IMG/VR virus record: IMGVR_UViG_3300034375_007944
Span: 1 to 49,550 of that record
Source: a virus
Reading direction: 5' to 3' (one strand)
Length of the DNA: 49,550 nucleotides
In this document: piece after piece, positions 4,443 through 34,859 of the stretch
Position numbering within the stretch: the first letter of the stretch is position 1
How the letters are laid out: the number at the start of each line of letters is the position of its first letter
Notes under the pieces: model-generated
What the model saw: the letters and a program-made list of their open reading frames with translations, nothing else
Told to the model about the DNA's origin: nothing
The model's database searches: none
Made by a program: the position numbers and the translations under genes

Positions 4443-6407
4443 TTATTTTGTAAATCTTCGCCTTGGAAGTGACTTACTTCTCACCCTTGGAGCAACCTTT
4501 GGTACTTCCCAAGCTACAATAGCCATCATAGAGGCAACCGTATCATCGTACTTTGTCCAACTGTTAGCCTCAAACCTTAGCCAATTCTCCAACAAATCGT
4601 CAAAAGGACAGAACCCGTATCCGTCGGCTTGCTTTCCTATTTTCTCCCAAGTGTGAATAACTAACTTATCCATGCACTCGTTACGTCTAGCTTCGCTTGT
4701 GGTTGGCGTACCTTCCGTCTGCAATCTTTTTATTGGGTCTTTTTCTAGCGGGTTGTGAATAATGTACTTCTCGTAACCCCTTTCTCTGAAGTAGTTTATC
4801 AGTCCTTGCTTTTGGTTCTCTACGTTTATTTCAGCAGAAAAGAACACGCAAGCTTTTATCATATCTTCGTAAAACTCGTTAGGGTTGTCGGGTCTGGTGC
4901 AATACCGAATCACCCAATCACTACCGTACCTTAGTCCGTACATCGACACCTTTGAACCCTCTCCAAAAGATACCGCTTTGTGGTCGACGGGGTCAACGCC
5001 TAACTTAATCGCCCGACCAATAGGCACTTTAAAGTTTCCGTTCCAAGCGTAGTTGTTTCGCTCTTCTTCCGACGGCATACTAGCTATTTGAAAAAAACCG
5101 TTGGTATCTCCGTCTACTAACTGCTCTCCCACAGGAACAGCTTTTACCGATACATCAACCTCGTCCCAAACTAGATTGTACATAGGCGGTGGAGCGCCGT
5201 TGTGTTCTAGTTGCTCTTGTACTTTTTCAACAGCTACAATAGAAGCGTCAGAGTTTTCCAAAAATATCTCGTCTTCGCTTAACGGATACTTTCTAATGTA
5301 ACTCAAAAGAGCAGAGCCACTTCTAGCTGCCCTTTCCGCCATGTGGTGTTTCCTAGCCGCTTCTTCGTCTGAATATCCCCACTCGTCAATAATAAACCCT
5401 CTGTCTGCGGGGTTAAAGTAACGCCCAAGACCACTTACGGTTCTTCCTGTGTCTTCACTTCTTCCCTCGTAGTTGCTTTCCTCCCAAAGTTTCTTTGTTT
5501 GTTGAGAGGAACTTTTCTCCATTTCGTCAACGGTAGTGGTTAGAATTAACTTTCCAACAACCTTGTCTCGCATAGAGCAAGTTTCCCTTGCTACGTAGTA
5601 TCTGTTTCGGGGGTTTACGTCTTTTTCTGTTTTTGCTATCTCATCTTGGTACATGGTGTAGTTACGAGTACCGTCCACTGCTTCGTCTCGGTTTGGATAA
5701 GTAACTATATAACTGTCAAGTACTTGTGACTTTTTCTTTTCTGCCGTTTTCTTTCTCGGAACGGTGAACTCTATTTTGTCTGTTGGGTTTTGGTTTCCTG
5801 TGTCTGTTGGTCGCCAAAAAGGGTGCATATTACGCCAAGCCTTTACAATCTTGTCACGAAAGACCGTTTCTTTTGCGTCTTTGAAAGTTTTACTTTGAAC
5901 CCCGAAGTTTCGGTTGTGACCCCAAGTTGTTCTCCAATACCCCGTACTTACAGCAAAGGTGGTCTTAAAGAATCGACGACCACTAAAGAGTAGCATTCCG
6001 TAACACCTTGGGTCGTTTTCTAACAAATCCCAAACGTAGTAACAATCCCTTTGTGCGTCTACAAAGTCTGCGTTACCCGTTGAGCCGTCCTCTCTTACTA
6101 TTGGAAAGTGTTGAAGCAACATATAGTGTTGCCCTGTTACGTACTCTAATTGGATGTTTTGGTCTGAACCGTTAAAGAACCAAAAGCCGTTTTGTCGCCG
6201 TTCAACCTCTTGGTCTTTTTGCTTTGGCGTTGGCTCATCTGGAAGCGGAGCGTAGGGGAATTTGCGCTTTTTTTCGTCCTTTTCACCGTAGTTGGCAATA
6301 GAAGAAATTGGTGGGGGTTTGGGTAGTTCAACCTCGTACCCCCTTATGTACCTATTTCTTTCAAAAGATTCGTAAGCTGCTTTATAAGCTTGCTTAACCG
6401 TTCTCAC
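4443..6407 (-). CDS. terL: Terminase large subunit
   Basis: 654 residues, GTG start overlapping the upstream gene by 14 bases. ATP-dependent DNA packaging motor. The ATPase domain shows a deviant Walker A, S-G-R-R-F-F-K-T-T (about residues 142-150), and a Walker B, T-M-Y-Q-D-E-I-A, around residue 253. The C-terminal RNase H-like nuclease is suggested by KLGVDPVDHKAVSFG and a late acidic pair in TKYDDTVASMMAIVA. Length suits the family, especially large crAss-like terminases. It lies downstream of the portal and capsid genes on the same strand. No small terminase subunit was recognised. Confidence 0.85.
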   Translation of the reverse strand: MRTVKQAYKAAYESFERNRYIRGYEVELPKPPPISSIANYGEKDEKKRKFPYAPLPDEPTPKQKDQEVERRQNGFWFFNGSDQNIQLEYVTGQHYMLLQHFPIVREDGSTGNADFVDAQRDCYYVWDLLENDPRCYGMLLFSGRRFFKTTFAVSTGYWRTTWGHNRNFGVQSKTFKDAKETVFRDKIVKAWRNMHPFWRPTDTGNQNPTDKIEFTVPRKKTAEKKKSQVLDSYIVTYPNRDEAVDGTRNYTMYQDEIAKTEKDVNPRNRYYVARETCSMRDKVVGKLILTTTVDEMEKSSSQQTKKLWEESNYEGRSEDTGRTVSGLGRYFNPADRGFIIDEWGYSDEEAARKHHMAERAARSGSALLSYIRKYPLSEDEIFLENSDASIVAVEKVQEQLEHNGAPPPMYNLVWDEVDVSVKAVPVGEQLVDGDTNGFFQIASMPSEEERNNYAWNGNFKVPIGRAIKLGVDPVDHKAVSFGEGSKVSMYGLRYGSDWVIRYCTRPDNPNEFYEDMIKACVFFSAEINVENQKQGLINYFRERGYEKYIIHNPLEKDPIKRLQTEGTPTTSEARRNECMDKLVIHTWEKIGKQADGYGFCPFDDLLENWLRFEANSWTKYDDTVASMMAIVAWEVPKVAPRVRSKSLPRRRFTK

Positions 6408-10911: not shown

Positions 10912-13305
10912 TTAAGACCTGATGTTTCTTTCGACATCATCCTCTGGTCTTGGGGTGGTTCTTACCGTGGGGGCTTTTGGCATACCTAACCCACCTCCTC
11001 CGTTAGCAGCCTTTGTGGTGTTTGTTGCAAGGGTGCTTTCTTCCCCATCTTTGGCAGTTTCTAAAAGGTCTTGCTTGATTTCGCCTTCCAACACAGCTAA
11101 CTCTTTCTTCTTCTCGTACTCTAGTTCTAAGTAGCGTTCTTTTCTGTCGTACTCTGCGTTTAGAACAGCCGCCTCTTTTTGTGCTTGAGCCTCTAAGGTC
11201 TTTCTCTTTTCTTCTTCCGCCACTCTTGCTGCTAGAGATTGGACTTCTGCGTTTTGTTGTTGCAGAGCCATAGACTGTTCTTGTTGCACCTTTCTGAATT
11301 TCTTCATTAGGTGTTGCATTACTCTTTCAGCGGTCTTTATTGATTGCTTAGATACCCTTCTTACAATCATAGCCATGTCAATAGAGATTTGGTTTCTGTC
11401 AAGGGCTATTCCTAAATCCCTTTCCATTTGCTCCATTTCCAAATCTGTAGGGCGGTAGTTAATCTTAACCCCAATCTCAGCTAACGAGAGGTCTTTGGTA
11501 AGATTAATCATATCAACCCGTTCCTTTCCTATTGCTTTGGAGTAGGCTTTATCCATTCCCGAACCCATAGCAATAGAGTCTCTTACAAGTAGTACAACGT
11601 TTTCTGCCGTTGCTTCTATTAACTTAGTGTAAGCTTCTGTAAGGTGCTTAATGGAGTTTTGGTGTGCTTTCTCCTTTATCTTTTCTATTCCAACCGCTGC
11701 GTCTTTATCAATAGAAGTGGTTTGGTTGAACCCTGTTATTTCGTACAGCTTTTGTAAACCGTAGTCGTACATTTGCTGTAGAACAATAATGTCTTGCGGA
11801 AGACCGTTTACCAACTGCCTTACAGGTTGTGGGTCGTTTATTGGTTGCCCTGCTTCGTCTTTTAAGGAGTAGTAAATAGTTCCCGTCTCGTCGAACATCT
11901 TTTGAGCTTCTACCTCGTCGTAAGAGTCGTAAGCCATTCCAGCCCCTTGAAGAGCATCGGAGTTGATTGCAAGTCCAGAAGGTCTCGACTCGTTTATTAA
12001 TTGCTGTCTCTTTAAATCAAGCAACATCATAAACTCAGCGATTGGTCGCATTTGCTCTACTTTAGACCGAAGGTTCATGTCTAAAATATTAGGAGCAACA
12101 ACTTTGTACGGACATTGCACCTTTGACTCATAAAGACCGTCGATTTTTTTACGCAACAGATTCTTTTTCATTCCGTAGTCGTAAATGAAATTCGTCTCAA
12201 CAACCCACTTTCCTCCGTAAATTGTTTCAACTGTTTTGTCTACTACCTCTGTTACTTTGTGCTTTCCTTTTTCGTCGTACTCGTCACTCACCATTTCAAA
12301 GCGGTAAGTAGAGCCTTTTCCTGTTTGCTTTTTTCTCCACTTGAACTTATCGGCGCTTCTAAAGATGAAGTCTAACACAAGAACTTTTACAGATTGTATG
12401 TCGTCCCAACCTACTTCTCTTCTGAACTCGTCGTACTTTCCGTATTCCCAAGAGCGGTTGCCCCACTTTCCTTGAGACATATAAGCTGCTCTAAAAATAT
12501 CTTCTTTGTTGAACTCTCCGTTTGTTTCTTTTATAAGTTCGGAGATTTCCATTTCTTGTACCTCTCCAAAGTATCTCCAATCAGAAGCGTCTTCTTCCGT
12601 AAAATAAGAGTAAATGAAGTTAGGAATCTGTACCGCTCTTATTCTTGGGTTTCCAAACTCGTCATAGTCTGTTCTTGTTGCGGCAATTTGATTGGACATA
12701 AGGTTAAAAGCTATTCTTCTTCTTAACCAATAGTCTCTGTTGTTTTGAAATACGTACTGAAGTGCGCCTTCGTAAGCCTCTTCAAAAGGAGCTTTGTAGT
12801 TTAGCTCAAGGTCTATTTCTATTTCCTCTAACGTGTCGGGTACGGTTTCCATTTCCTCTTCCGACATTATTTGGATTCCGTTTTGCGCGAACTCGGCAGC
12901 CTCTTTCTTTAGTCTTAGCTTTCCTCTACGCCTAGCTAGTTCTTTATCGTACTCTCCTTTTGAGGTGATGTCGTAAGCCTCGCAAACTAAGTCGTAGTCT
13001 CTTGAGGTAGTTCGGTTTACAAAGTCGTTTACAAGCGTTACAATAGGGTTTGCAACGTTCCAGTTCATTTGAGAGTAAGAGTTGTCTCCTGTGGCTATGC
13101 AGTCGTGAAGGTAAGTAATGTCCTCTTGACCCGTTGACCAATTAATGTTCTCTATCATTCTGTTTCTACGCTCGGTAGAATAGAAGTCAACGCCTTGGTA
13201 TTCGTTCCACCAAATTGCTTTTACGTAGTCGAGAATGTACTTTTTACTTTTTTTCTTTGACTTAGGTGCTACTAAATCTGGAAAATTTAAAGGGGAAGAC
13301 GACAT
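10912..13305 (-). CDS. Portal protein
   Basis: 797 residues, ATG start, preceded by a TATCTTTG box 19 bases upstream. It is large and helical with a basic N-terminus (APKSKKKSKKYILDYVKAIW), an alpha/beta core and a long C-terminal coiled coil (residues ~680-760, Gln/Glu/Lys/Ala-rich) ending in a Gly/Pro-rich tail. Size and layout fit podovirus portals of the crAss-like type, the dodecameric ring through which DNA enters and leaves the head. It is the first gene of the leftward head block. Identification is by layout and general resemblance; no short catalytic motif exists for this family. Confidence 0.7.
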   Translation of the reverse strand: MSSSPLNFPDLVAPKSKKKSKKYILDYVKAIWWNEYQGVDFYSTERRNRMIENINWSTGQEDITYLHDCIATGDNSYSQMNWNVANPIVTLVNDFVNRTTSRDYDLVCEAYDITSKGEYDKELARRRGKLRLKKEAAEFAQNGIQIMSEEEMETVPDTLEEIEIDLELNYKAPFEEAYEGALQYVFQNNRDYWLRRRIAFNLMSNQIAATRTDYDEFGNPRIRAVQIPNFIYSYFTEEDASDWRYFGEVQEMEISELIKETNGEFNKEDIFRAAYMSQGKWGNRSWEYGKYDEFRREVGWDDIQSVKVLVLDFIFRSADKFKWRKKQTGKGSTYRFEMVSDEYDEKGKHKVTEVVDKTVETIYGGKWVVETNFIYDYGMKKNLLRKKIDGLYESKVQCPYKVVAPNILDMNLRSKVEQMRPIAEFMMLLDLKRQQLINESRPSGLAINSDALQGAGMAYDSYDEVEAQKMFDETGTIYYSLKDEAGQPINDPQPVRQLVNGLPQDIIVLQQMYDYGLQKLYEITGFNQTTSIDKDAAVGIEKIKEKAHQNSIKHLTEAYTKLIEATAENVVLLVRDSIAMGSGMDKAYSKAIGKERVDMINLTKDLSLAEIGVKINYRPTDLEMEQMERDLGIALDRNQISIDMAMIVRRVSKQSIKTAERVMQHLMKKFRKVQQEQSMALQQQNAEVQSLAARVAEEEKRKTLEAQAQKEAAVLNAEYDRKERYLELEYEKKKELAVLEGEIKQDLLETAKDGEESTLATNTTKAANGGGGLGMPKAPTVRTTPRPEDDVERNIRS

Positions 13306-18136: not shown

Positions 18137-18405
18137 GTTTTTTTTTAGATAAACAGCTATTGCTCCGTAAAAAGTTCGACTGTTTGTAACTATAACTGCT
18201 AGTAAACTAACTGCTTAGAGCTAAGGAACTCTGAGCAGTAACTAGAGAAAAAGCCACTATAGTCTAATGAACGCGTGTGCGTGTACGCGAGGCAAAAAAC
18301 CATAGTGTGACTCCACCCCTGCTTGTCGCTTAAGTGACCCGTCGCAGTTTGCTTTTTGTTTAGGCACGCCACTAACTCGCCTACCGAGAACTTTTAACTC
18401 GATGT
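18137..18405 (-). ncRNA. Untranslated leader or small RNA in the divergent region
   Basis: A minus-strand promoter with both boxes (18410-18441) reads into about 270 bases without a credible gene. The stretch holds an 11-bp near-perfect hairpin (18210-18220 with 18229-18239, loop CTAAGGAA) and the near-palindrome GTCGCTTAAGTGAC around 18337. It is locally richer in G and C than its flanks. It may be the long leader of the GH16 gene or an independent small RNA. No known RNA family recognised. Confidence 0.4.
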
Positions 18406-21482: not shown

Positions 21483-21848
21483 ATGAGTGATATAATTAGA
21501 CAAGTGGGAACAATCTCACACATCAGCGCCCCTGAAAACGGGCAATCAAACGGAAAGCCTTGGACAAAGCAAACCGTTGTTATCGACGTTAACGTAACAA
21601 CAAAAGACGGAAATTCTTTTGAGAGAAAAGTAGCGGCAGAAGCTTTTAACAAAGACCTTTCTAACTTTCGGGTTGGGCAAAAAGGTACTCTGTCCCTAAT
21701 TATATCGGCACGTGAGTACAACGGAACTTGGTACACTAACCCTAAGTTTATTGGCTTTGACCCCGAACAAGGGCAAACAGCTTCTCAAACGCAAGCCGTT
21801 CCGCAAAAAGAATCAGCTAACGACGCTAACGATAATTTGCCGTTCTGA
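21483..21848 (+). CDS. ssb: Single-stranded DNA-binding protein, DUF3127-like
   Basis: 121 residues, ATG start with its own promoter box. An OB-fold-like core (TVVIDVNVTTKDGNSFERKV, then W-Y-T-N-P-K-F-I-G-F) follows the pattern of DUF3127, an SSB-like family found in Bacteroidota. The tail is Gln/Asn/Ala-rich and ends D-A-N-D-N-L-P-F, very like the acidic SSB tip (DDDLPF) that recruits replication and repair enzymes. It lies between the nuclease and primase-helicase genes. It should coat single strands at the phage fork. Confidence 0.75.
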   Translation: MSDIIRQVGTISHISAPENGQSNGKPWTKQTVVIDVNVTTKDGNSFERKVAAEAFNKDLSNFRVGQKGTLSLIISAREYNGTWYTNPKFIGFDPEQGQTASQTQAVPQKESANDANDNLPF

Positions 21849-22453: not shown

Positions 22454-24280
22454 TTGAACGAAAAGATAAGCGTGTACGAGAATATCAAGGAAGTTAAAAA
22501 CGGCTACACCATAACCGTTAAGACTGCCCTTGACAGGATAAAAACAGGAAAAAGCAAGGAGCTTCTGCTTGATATTCGCAAAGCAAAAACAAAAAAGGAA
22601 AAGAACGCACTAAAAGCAAACTTACCTTCTGTTACTTTTTCAGGAACTTTTACCGAGCGTAACGACGAGTCTTTAAAAGAGGCGAGTGGTTATATGGTAT
22701 TGGATTTTGACGACGTTAAAAGCGTTGAAGCCAAGAAGAAAGAACTATCTAACAACTCTTACGTGTTTGCTTGTTGGGAGTCTCCTTCGGGTAACGGGGT
22801 AAAAGCTTTGATAAAGATAGCTAACCCAAAGAAGTTTAAAGAACACTTCAAAGAGGTAGAAAAGGAGTTCAAAGGTATAGACCCGTCTGGAAAGAACATA
22901 TCAAGGGTTTGTTACGAGTCCTTTGACCCCGACATCTACATAAACCAAAACGCAAAAGTTTTTTCTAAAGTTCCGCAACAAGACGGGTACACCGTTAAGA
23001 ATTGGGACAGCGTAAACAAAGCTTTACGCAAAATTGAAGACTCAATAGAAGGAGAAAAGCACGACGTAAGAATACGAATATCTTATCTGTTCGGAGGTTG
23101 GGTCGCTTCGGGAGAAATGACTTATGACGACGCACACAGGTTGCTTATAAACGCTGTTCTAAAAAACACAGAAGACCCTGAGTTAGCAATAAAAGATGTT
23201 GAAGACTCTTTGAGAGAGGGTATGAAAAGCCCTTGCTCTATGACCAAACAAAACGAAATACTTAGTATGCGTGTTGGGGTCGGAAAGCTTTGGGTGACAA
23301 TGACAGATGTTGCTAAAGAGGTAGAAGAGTTTCAAAGAAAAGGGTACGAGCGTGGAGAGAGTTGTGGCTTTTCAAGTGCTGACGATTATATTTCCTTTCT
23401 TCCTTCCGCTGTTACTTACATATACGGAGCGCCTTATAGTGGAAAATCAAACTTCACTCACGAAGTTTGCATGAACTTGAGCGAAAGCAAAGGTTGGAAG
23501 TGGGTGCTTTTAACTCCCGAAACAGGAACGCCAGCCCAAGTCTACGGAGAGTTAATGTCGATTAAAGCAAAAAAGAGTTTTGTAGCGGGGGGTGTTGTTG
23601 ACCAAGAAGCGGCTCGGTTTGTCCGAGACCACTTTATCGTGCTTGATACAAAAGGCGCTGAGTTTTACCTTAAAGACTTCTGTAACCAAGTCGAAGGAAT
23701 AGAGCGAGAACTTAATATAAAAATAAACGGAACGGTAATAGACCCACACAACTACCTTGACTTTGACCTTAATTTGCGTGAAGACAGAGCTATTGGAAAA
23801 GACCTTGACTTAATGTTGGCAGACGCAAGAAAGAACGCTCGTCACAACATCTTAGTCACCCACGTAAGAGACCAACAGTTGCGGTTTATAAAAGACAACC
23901 AAGGGCAAGTCTCTAGGTCTTACTACCCTGCTGCTTCTCCGCGTGAGATACAGTACGGACAGATTTTTTTTAGAAAGGGAATGCAAATGATTTCCGCTTG
24001 GAGACCGCTTGACATCGAGGGTGAACCACTACCCGATAGCACGGGGGTTGATTACGACTCAAACGAAACACACTTTATCGTACATAAGTCCAAACCAAAA
24101 GGAATTGGAAGGACGGGAACTTTTAAGCTTTGGTACGACGTTGATAAAAACAGATACTACGAAAAGGCAATAAACGGAGAGCCTAAGTACGCTTTTGGAA
24201 ACGTTATCTACAACCCTAACAAATTTATTGAGCCGTCGGTAGAGTTTGAAGACGTGCCTGAGTACAAAGAATCAACATAA
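22454..24280 (+). CDS. Primase-helicase, VirE_N/BT4734-type N-terminus with RecA-like ATPase
   Basis: 608 residues, TTG start. The N-terminal region (residues ~55-175) matches the BT4734-like/VirE_N family related to archaeo-eukaryotic primases: Y-M-V-L-D-F-D-D-V (metal-binding hhDhD), E-S-P-S-G-N-G-V-K and I-S-R-V-C-Y-E-S-F-D-P-D-I. A PriCT-like helical section follows. The C-terminal RecA/DnaB-like ATPase has Walker A YGAPYSGKSNFTH (~residue 320), Walker B around G-T-V-I-D-P-H-N, and I-L-V-T-H-V-R-D. It should prime and unwind DNA at the phage fork. No start other than TTG precedes the primase motifs. Confidence 0.8.
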   Translation: MNEKISVYENIKEVKNGYTITVKTALDRIKTGKSKELLLDIRKAKTKKEKNALKANLPSVTFSGTFTERNDESLKEASGYMVLDFDDVKSVEAKKKELSNNSYVFACWESPSGNGVKALIKIANPKKFKEHFKEVEKEFKGIDPSGKNISRVCYESFDPDIYINQNAKVFSKVPQQDGYTVKNWDSVNKALRKIEDSIEGEKHDVRIRISYLFGGWVASGEMTYDDAHRLLINAVLKNTEDPELAIKDVEDSLREGMKSPCSMTKQNEILSMRVGVGKLWVTMTDVAKEVEEFQRKGYERGESCGFSSADDYISFLPSAVTYIYGAPYSGKSNFTHEVCMNLSESKGWKWVLLTPETGTPAQVYGELMSIKAKKSFVAGGVVDQEAARFVRDHFIVLDTKGAEFYLKDFCNQVEGIERELNIKINGTVIDPHNYLDFDLNLREDRAIGKDLDLMLADARKNARHNILVTHVRDQQLRFIKDNQGQVSRSYYPAASPREIQYGQIFFRKGMQMISAWRPLDIEGEPLPDSTGVDYDSNETHFIVHKSKPKGIGRTGTFKLWYDVDKNRYYEKAINGEPKYAFGNVIYNPNKFIEPSVEFEDVPEYKEST

Positions 24281-26133: not shown

Positions 26134-26498
26134 TCCTCGTTTCCGTCCCACTTTATCTTTTGTGGCTTGTAAAGCGAACTAGCTAAGATAACTTCCACTT
26201 CTTTTTTCTTCATCCCGTTTAGCGGGGCGTTCTTTTCCACAAGTTCAAAAACGTCTTTTACGGGCATATCCAACAACCTAGATATTTTCTTTAGGTGTTT
26301 AACGGTGATGTGGTCTTGTAGTTTCTTTCTTCTTTTTTCGTAAACCTCTCTTTTCCATCCAAGTAGCTTTAACATATTTGTTTTGGAGAATCCGTTGTCA
26401 AGGAAAGCTGCTTCAAAAAGGTCGGGAGAGCGGTAGCTATTTCCACCGTCTTGCACCATTGTTTTAAAAATATCAATTTTTTTGTGGGTTATTCTCAT
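26130..26498 (-). CDS. Divergent helix-turn-helix regulator
   Basis: 122 residues, ATG start, the only minus-strand gene in the early block. A Cro/XRE-like fold is suggested by FSKTNMLKLLGWKREVYEKR and by ITVKHLKKISRLLDMPVKDV, the latter typical of the last helices of XRE domains. It is divergent from groES with -7 boxes two bases apart, so it probably represses groES and/or itself. It is convergent with the gene to its left, stop codons overlapping. Confidence 0.6.
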   Translation of the reverse strand: MRITHKKIDIFKTMVQDGGNSYRSPDLFEAAFLDNGFSKTNMLKLLGWKREVYEKRRKKLQDHITVKHLKKISRLLDMPVKDVFELVEKNAPLNGMKKKEVEVILASSLYKPQKIKWDGNED

Positions 26499-26506
26499 CT
26501 TTTATT

Positions 26507-26514
26507 TATATTTG
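26507..26514 (+). promoter_or_regulatory. groES promoter -7 box (TATATTTG)
   Basis: TATATTTG with TTTG at 26481-26484, 22 bases upstream. The groES ATG is 20 bases downstream. Two bases separate it from the opposing box of the HTH gene. Confidence 0.7.
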
Positions 26515-26516
26515 CC

Positions 26517-26524
26517 CAAAGATA
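26517..26524 (-). promoter_or_regulatory. HTH gene promoter -7 box (TATCTTTG)
   Basis: CAAAGATA on the plus strand, TATCTTTG on the minus strand, 18 bases before the HTH ATG. It overlaps the footprint of the rightward groES promoter, so the two should exclude one another. Confidence 0.6.
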
Positions 26525-26534
26525 CAAAATTAAT

Positions 26535-26810
26535 ATGACAAAAGGAAAACCAGTTGGAACACACATTTTAATAGAGCCGATGAAAGTAGACGACTTATCG
26601 GAAACTATTATCACCGACTTTGTAAAGACAGAGTACCAAAAAGGAAAGGTGCTAGCGCTTGGGTCGGGAAAGATAGAAGGAACAGAAAAGATAGATTGGG
26701 ACATTGAAGTTGGGGACGTTGTGTACTACAGCGGAAAAGGTTCTGAAATAAACACCGAAAGCGGAACAAAGTTGTTTATCCGTCACGGTCAAATATATTG
26801 GGCAGAGTAA
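26535..26810 (+). CDS. groES: GroES-like co-chaperonin (Cpn10)
   Basis: 91 residues from ATG 26535; an opening at 26451 would run through the promoter and is rejected. Cpn10 features: PVGTHILIEPMKVDDLSETI (first strand and mobile loop), Y-Q-K-G-K-V-L-A-L-G-S-G-K, V-G-D-V-V-Y-Y-S-G-K-G-S-E-I and a C-terminal I-R-H-G-Q-I-Y-W. The mobile loop S-E-T-I-I-T-D-F is unlike host GroES, as in phage co-chaperonins such as T4 gp31. It likely redirects host GroEL to capsid or tail folding. Confidence 0.8.
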   Translation: MTKGKPVGTHILIEPMKVDDLSETIITDFVKTEYQKGKVLALGSGKIEGTEKIDWDIEVGDVVYYSGKGSEINTESGTKLFIRHGQIYWAE

Positions 26811-28029: not shown

Positions 28030-28629
28030 ATGACTGTAGAAAAAGCAAAAGAAACGATGTCAAACTTAGACTTTGTAAAAACTATTGCTGATATAGTTTG
28101 CGTGGAGTTTAACTTAGATTTTGACGAAATAAAAACAAACACATCTAGGGATAAGGTAGTAGCAATGCCAAGGCAAATAGCAATGTACTTTATTAGGGAG
28201 AACACAACTTTAAGTTTTGAAGCTATTGGTTCTTTCTTTGGGGACAAAGACCACGCTACTGTTATGCACGCTTGTAAAGTGGTAAAGCGAGATATGTTGG
28301 CGGTAAACAAAAAAGGAAACCCAATGATGCCTGACGTTTACAACTCAATCAAAACTATAGAGTCGATAATAAACAAGCACCTTAACTCAAAAGAGGGAAG
28401 CGCAAGAGAGGTTGCTTTGCGAAAGATTTTAGTAAACAAGTTCCGAGAAAGAGTTCTAAAAGGAGAGCAGTTTAACTTTGATTTGGAAAAGTACAAAGGA
28501 CAGACAAGAACAAAGAGGAACGTTTTCTTAGATTTAAGTTCTCTTATTTCTGTTCGTGATGAATTAAACGAAAAGATAAAAGAACTAGAAGTAGTTAAAA
28601 ATAAAGTTTTTTACAACGGCGATGTTTAA
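28030..28629 (+). CDS. Stand-alone DnaA domain IV-like DNA-binding protein
   Basis: 199 residues, ATG start. Residues ~25-85 match the DnaA C-terminal domain (Bac_DnaA_C): the basic loop and helix V-V-A-M-P-R-Q-I-A-M-Y-F-I-R, L-S-F-E-A-I-G-S-F-F-G-D-K and the signature D-H-A-T-V-M-H-A-C-K-V-V (bacterial DnaA: RDHTTVxHAxxK). No AAA+ domain is present. The remaining ~110 residues are helical and charged and unknown. It should bind DnaA boxes, either recruiting replication to the phage origin or competing with host DnaA. TGTGG repeats resembling DnaA boxes lie 2.5-3.7 kb downstream. Confidence 0.8.
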   Translation: MTVEKAKETMSNLDFVKTIADIVCVEFNLDFDEIKTNTSRDKVVAMPRQIAMYFIRENTTLSFEAIGSFFGDKDHATVMHACKVVKRDMLAVNKKGNPMMPDVYNSIKTIESIINKHLNSKEGSAREVALRKILVNKFRERVLKGEQFNFDLEKYKGQTRTKRNVFLDLSSLISVRDELNEKIKELEVVKNKVFYNGDV

Positions 28630-28929: not shown

Positions 28930-29201
28930 AAGTAACTGTACAGCAAGAGAGGGACTGTAAGCACTACGAGGTTAAGTTACGTGGGGCTAGTCTTTACTTT
29001 GTCGAGTACTTTGATAAGATACACTTGTCGGTTATTGAGGTCAAGGATAAAAGGAGGGGACGGGGAACAAAGTTAATGCGGGATTTGGAGTACTTTGAAA
29101 AACCAATAGAGCTTTGTCCCGTTCCAGAAAGCGCCTCTAACTTTTACCTTAAACTTGGGTACAGGTGGATAAGTGAAACTAAAATGAGAAAAGAGATATG
29201 A
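28926..29201 (+). CDS. Small GNAT-like acetyltransferase
   Basis: 91 residues, TTG start in a TTGA overlap. GNAT motif A is seen in L-S-V-I-E-V-K-D-K-R-R-G-R-G-T-K-L-M (acetyl-CoA pyrophosphate loop R-x-x-G-x-G/T) and motif B in A-S-N-F-Y-L-K-L-G-Y-R-W. The N-terminal strands are reduced compared with the usual ~150 residues, so this is a minimal version. Substrate unknown; phage GNATs can modify host proteins or small molecules. Confidence 0.65.
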   Translation: MKVTVQQERDCKHYEVKLRGASLYFVEYFDKIHLSVIEVKDKRRGRGTKLMRDLEYFEKPIELCPVPESASNFYLKLGYRWISETKMRKEI

Positions 29202-29416
29202 AAGCGAAGTTTGAAGAGGACACAACCAAACCCGCCCACTACGAAAGGTTAGCTATTGATGTGTACGAGTTTTGTCACGCAAATAACTTAGGTATGCTTG
29301 AGGGTAACGTTATTAAGTACATTGTCCGTCGAAAGGACAACCGCTTAGAAGACCTTAAAAAGGCTATGAACACCCTTGAGAGGTTAATTGAGTTAGAAAA
29401 CGATTTACCGAGATGA
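29198..29416 (+). CDS. DUF3310 family protein
   Basis: 72 residues, ATG start in an ATGA overlap. The family pattern is clear: K-P-A-H-Y-E at the start, G-N-V-I-K-Y-I-V-R-R-K-D and L-E-D-L-K-K-A-M-N-T-L-E-R-L-I-E. Widespread in tailed phages, often annotated as nucleotide kinase-related without proof. Function unknown. Its TGA overlaps the next ATG. Confidence 0.8.
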   Translation: MKAKFEEDTTKPAHYERLAIDVYEFCHANNLGMLEGNVIKYIVRRKDNRLEDLKKAMNTLERLIELENDLPR

Positions 29417-30616: not shown

Positions 30617-30646
30617 TAGTGAAAAGTGTTACAAGGAAAAAAATTG

Positions 30647-30654
30647 TATATTTG
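30647..30654 (+). promoter_or_regulatory. -7 box (TATATTTG) entering the non-coding region
   Basis: TATATTTG 31 bases after the stop of the last early gene. Transcription from here would start near 30660 and run into a GC-richer, structured stretch before any start codon. Confidence 0.55.
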
Positions 30655-30659
30655 AATAT

Positions 30660-30866
30660 GCCTATATTGTTCTTTCAAGTGGCGAAGATAGAATGATTAG
30701 GTTAATGCCCAATCAATAGCGTTGCCTTCTGCTAGGGCTGAGGGGGTAGTGGACATCCTGACTAGGTTATGCAGACCGAAAAGGGTAGAGTGTAGCCAGC
30801 ACTATTTCCACTCCCCTTCATAGGAGGTCACTAACTAGCTGTGCATATATCAACAATAGAAATAAG
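30660..30866 (+). ncRNA. Candidate structured RNA or long leader
   Basis: About 200 bases between a promoter box and a 37-codon reading frame, with no convincing gene. Possible stems include GGGTAGAGTG (about 30778) with CACTCCCC (about 30812), AGTG/CACT inside it around TAGCCAG, and CTGC/GCAG spanning 30728-30774. It is richer in G than the AT-rich DNA on either side. No known family recognised. Confidence 0.35.
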
Positions 30867-30980
30867 ATGAAACTAACAGAACTAAAAGTACCAGAAGACG
30901 TACTTGTTGAGATTAGGGTGGCGGCTTTTAAGAATAAACTATCCACCTCTCGCCCCGTAGCAAACAAGATTAGCTTCTGA
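30867..30980 (+). CDS. Possible 37-residue peptide at the origin border
   Basis: ATG start, 37 residues: acidic/hydrophobic first half (KLTELKVPEDVLVEIRVAAF) and basic, Ser-rich second half. It is isolated between the candidate RNA and the repeat region, so coding status is uncertain. Confidence 0.3.
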   Translation: MKLTELKVPEDVLVEIRVAAFKNKLSTSRPVANKISF

Positions 30981-31043
30981 GTCACCTTACCCCCACCCAC
31001 AGCAATATACTTATATTTAGCTATTAGCTACGGCTTTTAGAGT

Positions 31044-31112
31044 AGCTATAGCTGTTAATAACCCAAAAAAAACTATAGCTACCTAACAGCTATAGTTACC
31101 TATTAGCTATAG
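31044..31112. repeat. AGCTATAG repeat cluster
   Basis: Four copies: the perfect palindrome AGCTATAGCT (31044-31053), CTATAGCT (31073-31080), AGCTATAG (31088-31095) and AGCTATAG (31105-31112). CTATAGCTGTTA (31046-31057) and TAACAGCTATAG (31084-31095) are a perfect 12-base inverted repeat. Likely protein-binding sites. Confidence 0.7.
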
Positions 31113-31167
31113 TAGTATATACTAACACGCGCGAGCAAAGCACACATTTACCGCTTTTAGACCCCTC

Positions 31168-31435
31168 TGTGGTTAATTTACCCGTTGGCGTGGCAAAAAG
31201 ACGTAAAGCCCCAATAGGTAACAGCAATTAGCCAAAGTTTAAGCCCGACCAAAGACACCACCCTTGGTTGTCAAGTCGCAAACGGAAATCTTTAATTGTG
31301 GTTGTTAGGCAACCTTTGGGAGTCTGTGTGAATATGGATGTCAGGTGGCTTGGGGTGTCTTGATGTGGTTAAATCCTTGCTTAAGAAGCGTGAATGTGGT
31401 TGTTAGGTTTCCTTTTAGTGCGTTAATGTGGTATA
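31168..31435 (+). repeat. DnaA-box-like iteron array
   Basis: TGTGGTTAA (31168), TGTGGTTGT (31297), TATGGATGT (31333), TGTGGTTAA (31364), TGTGGTTGT (31395) and TGTGGTATA (31427); a further TGTGGCTAA is at 31745. The last five in the array start 36, 31, 31 and 32 bases apart, about three helical turns. TGTGGATAA is the complement of the DnaA box TTATCCACA, from which TGTGGTTAA differs by one base. Longer copies share GTGGTTGTTAGG. Confidence 0.6.
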
Positions 31436-31694
31436 ATACTTTAACACTAAGGGTTACTTAACCAAAAGAAAACGCAACCCTCAGACTGGGTACCCTCTTG
31501 CCTCATCCATCTGCTTTTATTATGGCTATTCTAGGGTAAAATACCAGCCAAAAGTCATATAATATATGTTATGTAAAGTAAATTCCAGCTACTATATTAC
31601 TACTTAATATGCAGAGGCTCAAGGTTTTACAGGGCAAAAGTTCAACCAATACTTTAAGACGTTGTGCACATTTGCGACAGTTGACTAAGCAAAG

Positions 31695-31720
31695 TTAGAT
31701 TTATCTAACAATATTGTTAG
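31695..31720. repeat. Two overlapping palindromes
   Basis: TTAGATTTATCTAA (31695-31708) overlaps CTAACAATATTGTTAG (31705-31720), a perfect 16-base palindrome. They could be operators or melt into hairpins. Confidence 0.7.
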
Positions 31721-31834
31721 GCTAGTCTAATCTTTGACCTTAGATGTGGCTAATTATATTTTAGGTAGTATGCATTGCAAGGTAGTAGGTATTGAATTAT
31801 CCCCATCAAAAATAACCCCAATACTTTCACCTTT

Positions 31835-31870
31835 GATAGTATTACTATCGCTCTCGATAGTTTTGCTATC
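31835..31870. repeat. Tandem GATAG/CTATC hairpins
   Basis: GATAGT-ATT-ACTATC (31835-31849) and GATAG-TTTTG-CTATC (31856-31870) stand six bases apart, the arms being shared between the two units. Confidence 0.65.
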
Positions 31871-31892
31871 AATATAAATAGATATACTTATA

Positions 31893-32033
31893 TTTACCGC
31901 TTAATAAGTTCTTTTTGTCAATTAGTTTTTTTTGTTTATTCACGCGCGCACGGTTTCTTATTTGAATAAGTGTTATTTGTTTATGTTGCTGATTTTCAAT
32001 TACTTAAGTATTTTTTTTACCGTTTAATAAGTT
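31893..32033. repeat. 18-base direct repeat, two copies
   Basis: TTTACCGYTTAATAAGTT occurs at 31893-31910 (Y=C) and 32016-32033 (Y=T), 123 bases apart, in AT-rich DNA containing few other features. Confidence 0.7.
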
Positions 32034-32496
32034 TAATTAAAAAAACTCTTTGTTAACTCTTTGTCATCTCGATTTTTCTGTTTTCCTTTGTCATCAACAA
32101 AGCGGGAAACGTCTCGCTCCGTTCCTTGACACACTGACTACATTCACTCGCAAAGAGCTGAACAAACCGACGACCAAAGCTGCCTAAAGGGCTGAACCCC
32201 TTTTGCAAGCGCACCCAAGCGGGCGCGGGCTAACCTATCGAAAAAGCTTTGAGAGCGCACCAAAGACACCAGCGCATCACGCGCCGTGCGCCGTTCGTTT
32301 CATTGCTGCCCCGAAATAGGCAATTCGGGCTAAGGGATACGCTAAACCCTTTTAATAGTGAAGACGTTTGAATGTAGTTTGAGAATTTACCCAAAAGAGG
32401 ACAGAAGTCCGCTCCTTGTTAATAGATATTAAGCAGCAAGGCAACCGAAAGACGAAAGTCGGGGTTGAGCCGCCGTAGTTGATGAATTGCGGTGCT

Positions 32497-32548
32497 AAAT
32501 TGATAGGTGCAAAAAATAGCACAATATTGTGTTCAATGCCTATAATTT
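32497..32548. repeat. Long imperfect palindrome
   Basis: AAATTGATAGG (32497-32507) pairs with CCTATAATTT (32539-32548) apart from one bulged G, and encloses the perfect palindrome CACAATATTGTG (32520-32531). No T-run follows. Confidence 0.65.
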
Positions 32549-32588: not shown

Positions 32589-32633
32589 GGCAAAGGTACG
32601 TTGTAGACGTATGCAGCAATTGCGACCTTTGCC
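32589..32633. promoter_or_regulatory. Palindromic back-to-back promoters
   Basis: GGCAAAGGT (32589-32597) and ACCTTTGCC (32625-32633) are perfect inverted repeats and each is a -7 box. Rightward: TTG 32601-32603, 20 bases, GACCTTTG 32624-32631, leading to the ATG at 32655. Leftward: TTG 32619-32617, 18 bases, TACCTTTG 32598-32591, reading into the structured non-coding DNA. Confidence 0.55.
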
Positions 32634-34106: not shown

Positions 34107-34859
34107 ATGAACTTATTAGCAAGCGGAAAGACGAACGCGAAGACGTCTAAAAACAAACGCAACACAGCAATAATGTACATTGCTCCGTTCAATCAAAACG
34201 AGCGAGGTACTAACCTTTGCCCCAAAGCAAGTAACGGGTGCGCTGCAGCCTGTCTGTATAACTCAGGACGCGGTAAATTTAGCAACGTGAAACAAGCTAG
34301 AATAAACAAAGCTAACTACTTTGTAAGTGACAAACGAAAGTTTACAAAGCAACTACTTGACGAACTGGTGAAGCTTAACAATAAAGGCAAATTTGCGGTA
34401 AGGCTTAACGGCACAAGTGACGTTGACTTTATAAAGTTAATTGACCTACACCATAACGTTGACGTTCTTGAGTCTTTGCCTAACTTGACGTTCTACGACT
34501 ACACAAAGGTATTAACGCGGGTAAAACGGTACGCTGGTACTAACTACAGGCTGACGTTTAGCAGGTCTGAAACAAACGAACACGAAGCGGTTGAAGCCTT
34601 AACCGTTGGCTCACCAATATCTGTAGTGTTTAGCACAAAGAAAGGCGAACCTTTGCCGAGTGAATACTTAGGACACACAGTGGTGGACGGTGACGAAGCT
34701 GACGATATTATGCTTGACAAACGCGGAGCGTATGTGTTAGGCTTAAGGTTCAAAGGTTCTAACTCAGACAGGATTGAAGCTGTTGACAGCGGATTTGTGG
34801 TGAACGTAAATAAACTAAAAGATGAAGTTAAAAATAACGGTGAGTTGGTTCAAGGGTAA
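34107..34859 (+). CDS. GP88-like (DUF7227) protein
   Basis: 250 residues, ATG start. Recognisable blocks: N-L-L-A-S-G-K-T-N-A-K-T-S-K, A-P-F-N-Q-N, then C-P-K-A-S-N-G-C-A-A-A-C-L with three cysteines, V-R-L-N-G-T-S-D-V-D and L-P-N-L-T-F-Y-D-Y-T-K-V. This matches the gene product 88 family of phages and plasmids (named from mycobacteriophage L5). The C-x(6)-C-x(3)-C cluster suggests metal or Fe-S binding. Biochemical role unknown. Confidence 0.7.
   Translation: MNLLASGKTNAKTSKNKRNTAIMYIAPFNQNERGTNLCPKASNGCAAACLYNSGRGKFSNVKQARINKANYFVSDKRKFTKQLLDELVKLNNKGKFAVRLNGTSDVDFIKLIDLHHNVDVLESLPNLTFYDYTKVLTRVKRYAGTNYRLTFSRSETNEHEAVEALTVGSPISVVFSTKKGEPLPSEYLGHTVVDGDEADDIMLDKRGAYVLGLRFKGSNSDRIEAVDSGFVVNVNKLKDEVKNNGELVQG

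Follow-up and report, generated by a model that had tools for sequence, protein, structure and literature searches.

A candidate replication origin with DnaA-box-like sites in an uncultured phage encoding a stand-alone DnaA domain IV protein

The window analyzed here is the whole of the 49,550-base linear record IMGVR_UViG_3300034375_007944 (IMG/VR), which comes from an uncultured phage. A gene-free region at positions 30617–32539, marked by the lack of any gene-like ORF, an excess of DnaA-box-like sites, and segments of weak duplex DNA, is probably where copying of the phage DNA starts. The fuller reading, in which the phage's own DnaA-domain-IV protein, which has no AAA+ domain, reads this region as an origin, stands in our estimate at about an even chance.

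A second assembly of the window phage (G001), 99.9% identical to the record, bridged the window ends with approximately 10.1 kb, indicating a circular map of approximately 59.7 kb for the genome. Head genes, including those for the terminase large subunit (4443–6407, − strand) and the portal (10912–13305, − strand), occupy the − strand on the left side of the window, and a + strand block at 18.4–38.3 kb encodes an exonuclease, an SSB-like protein, a primase-helicase, the DnaA-domain-IV protein, and gp88. The SSB and primase-helicase named in the initial annotation were both present and formed one module with the exonuclease: the SSB-like protein (21483–21848, + strand) is a DUF3127 protein matching phrog_4932 (single-strand binding), and the primase-helicase (22454–24280, + strand; phrog_18375) has a BT4734-like N-terminal domain. 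Judging from TTG-TAnnTTTG promoter motifs, protein families, and relatives, the host is probably a member of the Bacteroidota. In a strain comparison, the gene-free region was identical across the other assemblies of the window phage, which made the comparison uninformative. Another strain (L059) carried approximately 1.4 kb (its positions 123–1508) that was unmatched in the window and replaced window positions 29202–29254. The window also encodes a GroES/Cpn10-like phage protein at 26451–26810 (PF00166, E = 2.6e-8).

The proposed reader of the boxes is a 199-residue protein encoded at 28030–28629 on the + strand. Its residues 17–84 form a DnaA domain IV (PF08299, E = 2.1e-24, above the curated cut-off; found once in the record), and its AlphaFold model superposed on the DnaA domain IV-DNA structure 1j1v with an rmsd of 1.8 Å and a TM score of 0.86 by target length, bearing out the phage DnaA domain IV that had been proposed from the sequence. 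Alignment to 1j1v and 8btg showed that the DNA-reading residues of DnaA, whose role is described in PMC5043019, were largely retained (R48 and KDHATV), and these positions were invariant or nearly so among phage homologues. This retention supports the origin reading. Neither an AAA+ DnaA (PF00308) nor a Rep_3 initiator was detected in the record. Stand-alone DnaA domain IV proteins were common in viral contigs (235 matches); the set used here consisted of the best 80 of these, and all inspected representatives were shorter than 200 residues. A single-query search of viral contigs with the window protein returned the same species only. The DnaA_C matches examined in human-gut "phages" proved to be full-length bacterial DnaA and were excluded.

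Within 30617–32539, 11 sites had at most one mismatch to TTATNCACA, compared with a mean of 2.4 and a maximum of 8 in 300 shuffles, and the enrichment held rank 0 among 400 permuted patterns. The CACA core was intact in six of these 11 sites (null 1.0; 0 of 1000 shuffles). DnaA-box-like sites in the region included ATATGCACA (30840–30848, − strand), TTAACCACA (31168–31176, − strand, and again at 31364–31372, − strand, within the repeat array described below), ATATTCACA (31327–31335, − strand), TTGTGCACA (31662–31670, + strand), and TTAGCCACA (31745–31753, − strand). The motif TTARCCACA occurred three times in 49.5 kb, each time in the gene-free region, an observation made post hoc and not put to a test. 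That the box enrichment is specific to this region argues for the origin reading. Against it stand the lack of any exact TTATNCACA in the gene-free region and the finding of a DnaA-box cluster in 0 of 74 other phages with a stand-alone DnaA domain IV. Two exact consensus boxes of the phage lie elsewhere (4652 and 4754).

The box-like sites adjoin AT-rich, easily opened DNA, as in bacterial oriC. A weakly paired AT-rich stretch at 31840–32060 is a candidate opening site; only one other 200-bp duplex in the window is weaker than the one starting at 31856, and weak duplex DNA was detected at 31550, 31840–31872, and 31956. The presence of weak duplex DNA and the lack of any other recognized initiator (Rep_3 or AAA+ DnaA) in the record also favor the origin reading.

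A repeat array on the + strand at 31263–31441 comprises units at 31297, 31333, 31364, 31395, and 31427, preceded by a weaker CTTGGTTGT unit at 31263. The initial annotation had described five TGTGG-core nonamers close to the complement of the DnaA box, placed on one strand and one face of the DNA. Four of the five do carry TGTGG, whereas the second (31333) is TATGGATGT with a TATGG core. The spacings of 36, 31, 31, and 32 bp were correct, and the TGTGG copies, including the flanking ones at 31168 and 31745, all lie on the + strand (31168, 31297, 31364, 31395, 31427, and 31745). These spacings correspond to 3.43, 2.95, 2.95, and 3.05 helical turns; because the 36-bp step is approximately 3.4 turns, the first unit falls roughly half a turn out of phase and a shared DNA face applies to the last four units only. 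Taken at 10.5 bp, the phases of the five units gave a resultant length of 0.65, and those of the six TGTGG sites together gave 0.29. The sites at 31168, 31364, and 31745 are one mismatch from the DnaA box, but those at 31297, 31333, 31395, and 31427 are three mismatches away, which counts against the origin reading.

TGTGG was found six times in 30617–32539 against 1.2 expected, a count reached by 3 of 1000 dinucleotide shuffles. The array units are only loosely alike and lie 31–36 bp apart; the top chain in the gene-free region consisted of five TGTGGTTGT-like 9-mers (at most two mismatches, 28–38 bp steps), and 200 shuffles of the region gave a chain of five once and a chain of four nineteen times. 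A spacing range of 34–44 bp also gave a chain of five, built on a low-complexity word, so that periodicity by itself is modest evidence. The excess of box-like sites over the whole region is the stronger and more robust signal. The initial annotation had passed over this excess, as well as three large inverted repeats and the alternating purine-pyrimidine element at 31941, all described below or above. A scan with an ATGTGGT-triplet pattern, tried as a DnaA marker and rejected, returned 68 loci that were mostly coding repeats or unrelated arrays, and a DnaA_C protein accompanied TGTGG triple arrays at 0 of the 48 loci tested elsewhere, indicating that the array alone is not diagnostic. No nucleotide relatives of the gene-free region were found among phage records.

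Relatives with arrays upstream of gp88 were found through a search with the gp88 family, which in the window is represented at 34107–34859 (+ strand; PF17338, E = 7.7e-36, and synteny). In one relative (L007), whose DnaA-domain-IV protein is 35% identical to that of the window, five TTTGTTATGATGGG iterons directly follow the DnaA domain IV gene; another (L006) has a fivefold TCTTTAACATAGTA array upstream of gp88. Arrays of TTTAATATGATGGGG, often spaced 43-32-19-25-19, were present in L009–L018 and many other contigs, and many of the phages that carry them are marine. Several phage contigs hold two TTTAATATGATGGGG arrays approximately 1–2 kb apart (5984–6087 and 8229–8317 in L010). A diverged DnaA-domain-IV-derived protein was encoded in 28 of 50 array-bearing records, and in 18 of 24 that were at least 10 kb long, compared with 0 of 49 controls (array-free records of gp88 or other relatives); four of the positives seeded the search model, the negatives were mostly short fragments, and the records are mutually related, so that the counts do not amount to independent trials. 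The L010-type protein was not found among phage isolates.

The order DnaA-derived gene, 29198-type gene, array, and gp88 was conserved, mostly on one strand. The window shares this order, with its 29198-type gene at 29198–29416 (+ strand), a small gene with a homologue that in relatives comes after the DnaA-derived gene, and with the TGTGG array in the array slot. Both the conserved order together with a DnaA-domain-IV-derived protein in array-bearing relatives and the five iterons placed right after the gene in L007 speak for the origin reading. The array sequence in relatives differs from that of the window: a matrix of their iterons left the window array unmatched and gave one weak inverted unit at 31799, which weighs against this reading, as does L006, whose recognition helix is the canonical RDHATV yet whose iterons lack CACA. 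Because L006 breaks the pairing, we do not claim a strict correspondence between recognition helix and iteron. DnaA boxes are absent from the relatives' arrays, which could have a role in transcription instead of replication. As a whole, the earlier proposal of an iteron-type origin served by the phage's own initiator found partial support, in the protein, the replication module, and the arrays in the same slot of relatives, and gained strength from the comparison; strict phasing and five boxes were not supported.

In relatives, most arrays are followed, usually 80–250 bp downstream and ahead of gp88, by an element of the form TTGTA-(alternating purine-pyrimidine)-GTWC in AT-rich DNA. Its alternating core is GC-rich and mostly 11 or 13 nt long, with a median alternation score of 7 compared with 3 in neighboring DNA (p = 4.5e-9, related sequences being counted separately). 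Alternation was retained while the letters changed, the pattern to be anticipated where structure, be it Z-DNA or flexibility, is what counts; dinucleotide-repeat slippage could instead account for it. An alternation test in 17 spacers is given no weight here, since these spacers were themselves chosen for alternation. In the window, TTGTTTATTCACGCGCGCACGGTTTC at 31930–31965 (+ strand, alternating core at 31941) was the best of 4950 segments when compared with the relatives' elements and had the right orientation; this shared element, ranking first of 4950, supports the origin reading. Window positions 31839–32091 were colinear with L007 just past its array (52.5 bits; the best of 272 scored shuffles reached 49.4), an alignment that suggests homology of the two loci. 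By the same alignment the window array lies approximately 400 bp further upstream than that of L007, a point against the origin reading. The strongest alternating tract of the window, ACGCGTGTGCGTGTACGCG, lies elsewhere (18271–18289), between the divergent genes where GC skew reaches its minimum.

In the course of events that we infer from these features, the DnaA-domain-IV protein would bind TTARCCACA/TGTGG-type sites in and around the array, the AT-rich DNA at 31840–32060 would serve as the opening site, and the protein would help to recruit and load the phage primase-helicase, making the region active as an origin at which a host polymerase would copy the phage DNA. The initial annotation had named cumulative GC skew as a check. 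On the 59.7-kb circle, the minimum was at 18.4 kb, in a divergent intergenic region, and the maximum at 39.5 kb; neither a GC-skew switch at 31 kb nor a clear switch at third codon positions was observed. The missing switch counts against an origin there; GC skew follows gene strand in this genome and is of no help in locating the origin.

Much of the same DNA could be described as a transcription-control region, in which the array, the palindromes, and the alternating element are operators controlling downstream genes including gp88, possibly with the DnaA-domain-IV protein acting as the transcription factor. We regard this as unlikely, although it is the strongest of the alternatives. An operon lies downstream of the region, the sequence TGTGGTATAAT at 31427 resembles an extended −10 box, and of the three large inverted repeats in the gene-free region (a long one with AGCTATAGCT motifs at 31018–31113, z = −4.5; one at 31685–31743; and a double GATAG-CTATC palindrome at 31833–31872, which begins the stretch alignable to L007 past its array) the latter two are operator-like. 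A Bacteroidota-type promoter motif, TTG-N-TACCTTTG, at 32592–32619 on the − strand also fits; it faces the gene-free region and has no evident gene behind it. However, a control region of approximately 1.9 kb would be long, promoter-like matches were not in excess (7 compared with 4.9 in shuffles), and easily melted DNA with box enrichment suits an origin better; one region could also serve both roles. As separate observations, two assemblies of the window phage (G003 and G001) terminate on either side of the palindrome at 31685–31743 (span 31676–31781), and the + strand segment 32377–32530 is structured (z about −3.2), with several hairpins and no Rfam match. The Rfam scan gave nothing at curated thresholds, and the sub-threshold matches look like chance.

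It is quite improbable that the origin is read by another phage protein, such as the primase-helicase acting on its own repeats in the manner of P4 alpha, with the DnaA-domain-IV protein otherwise employed. The C-terminal part of the primase-helicase is helicase-like (phrog_5482, weak PF00910 match) and most array units match the DnaA box poorly, but the box enrichment and the company that the relatives' arrays keep with a DnaA-derived protein argue against this explanation. Capture of host DnaA, which would either start the phage origin or have its initiation in the host disturbed by the phage sites and the small protein, has a low probability: the sites resemble the common DnaA box and host DnaA, unlike the phage protein, possesses an AAA+ motor, whereas the exact consensus boxes of the phage lie outside the region and the relatives' arrays are devoid of DnaA boxes. 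A packaging site (pac or cos) with terminase-binding repeats is very unlikely, since the DnaA-derived gene is what stays with the array, and the window terminase is 25 kb away from it, even though a terminase gene lies close upstream of the array in L007 and L011.

An origin read by the DnaA-domain-IV protein would resemble bacterial oriC in its apparent clustering of TTATNCACA-like 9-mers next to AT-rich DNA with weak pairing and in the DnaA-domain-IV protein encoded nearby. It would differ in having no exact box, no AAA+ domain in the phage protein, several palindromes, no skew switch, and a phage setting. It would come close to iteron origins of the lambda O and Rep_3 types in what looks like an array of direct repeats, placed in gene-free DNA not far from a replication module; in contrast to them, no Rep_3 protein was found in the window, its units are only loosely alike, and its proposed initiator is of the DnaA-domain-IV type, encoded approximately 2.6 kb upstream of the array. 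A replication initiation protein DnaA has been reported in Polaribacter phages P12002L and P12002S (PMC4615864). Like Leeuwenhoekiella phage Arctus_1, they are phages of marine Flavobacteriia in which a DnaA-like gene is present, and Arctus_1 encodes a stand-alone domain IV protein (WYD67201.1) next to a replication gene. The Arctus_1 locus has no clear array, and no origin array was described for P12002L/S or Arctus_1 in the literature examined.

We tentatively suggest, as a possibility rather than an expectation, that these loci represent an undescribed class of Bacteroidota-virus origins, with a DnaA-domain-IV-only initiator lacking AAA+, a recognition helix and array that diverge together, and, past the array, a conserved alternating element that may be prone to Z-DNA formation. 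If the origin reading is true, these phages made the DNA-reading domain of DnaA their own stand-alone initiator, and the related phages would offer a natural series of readers and binding sites that vary in step. Origin function without a DnaA AAA+ motor of the phage's own would become directly testable, and the conserved element of alternating purines and pyrimidines would come as a surprise among origin parts.
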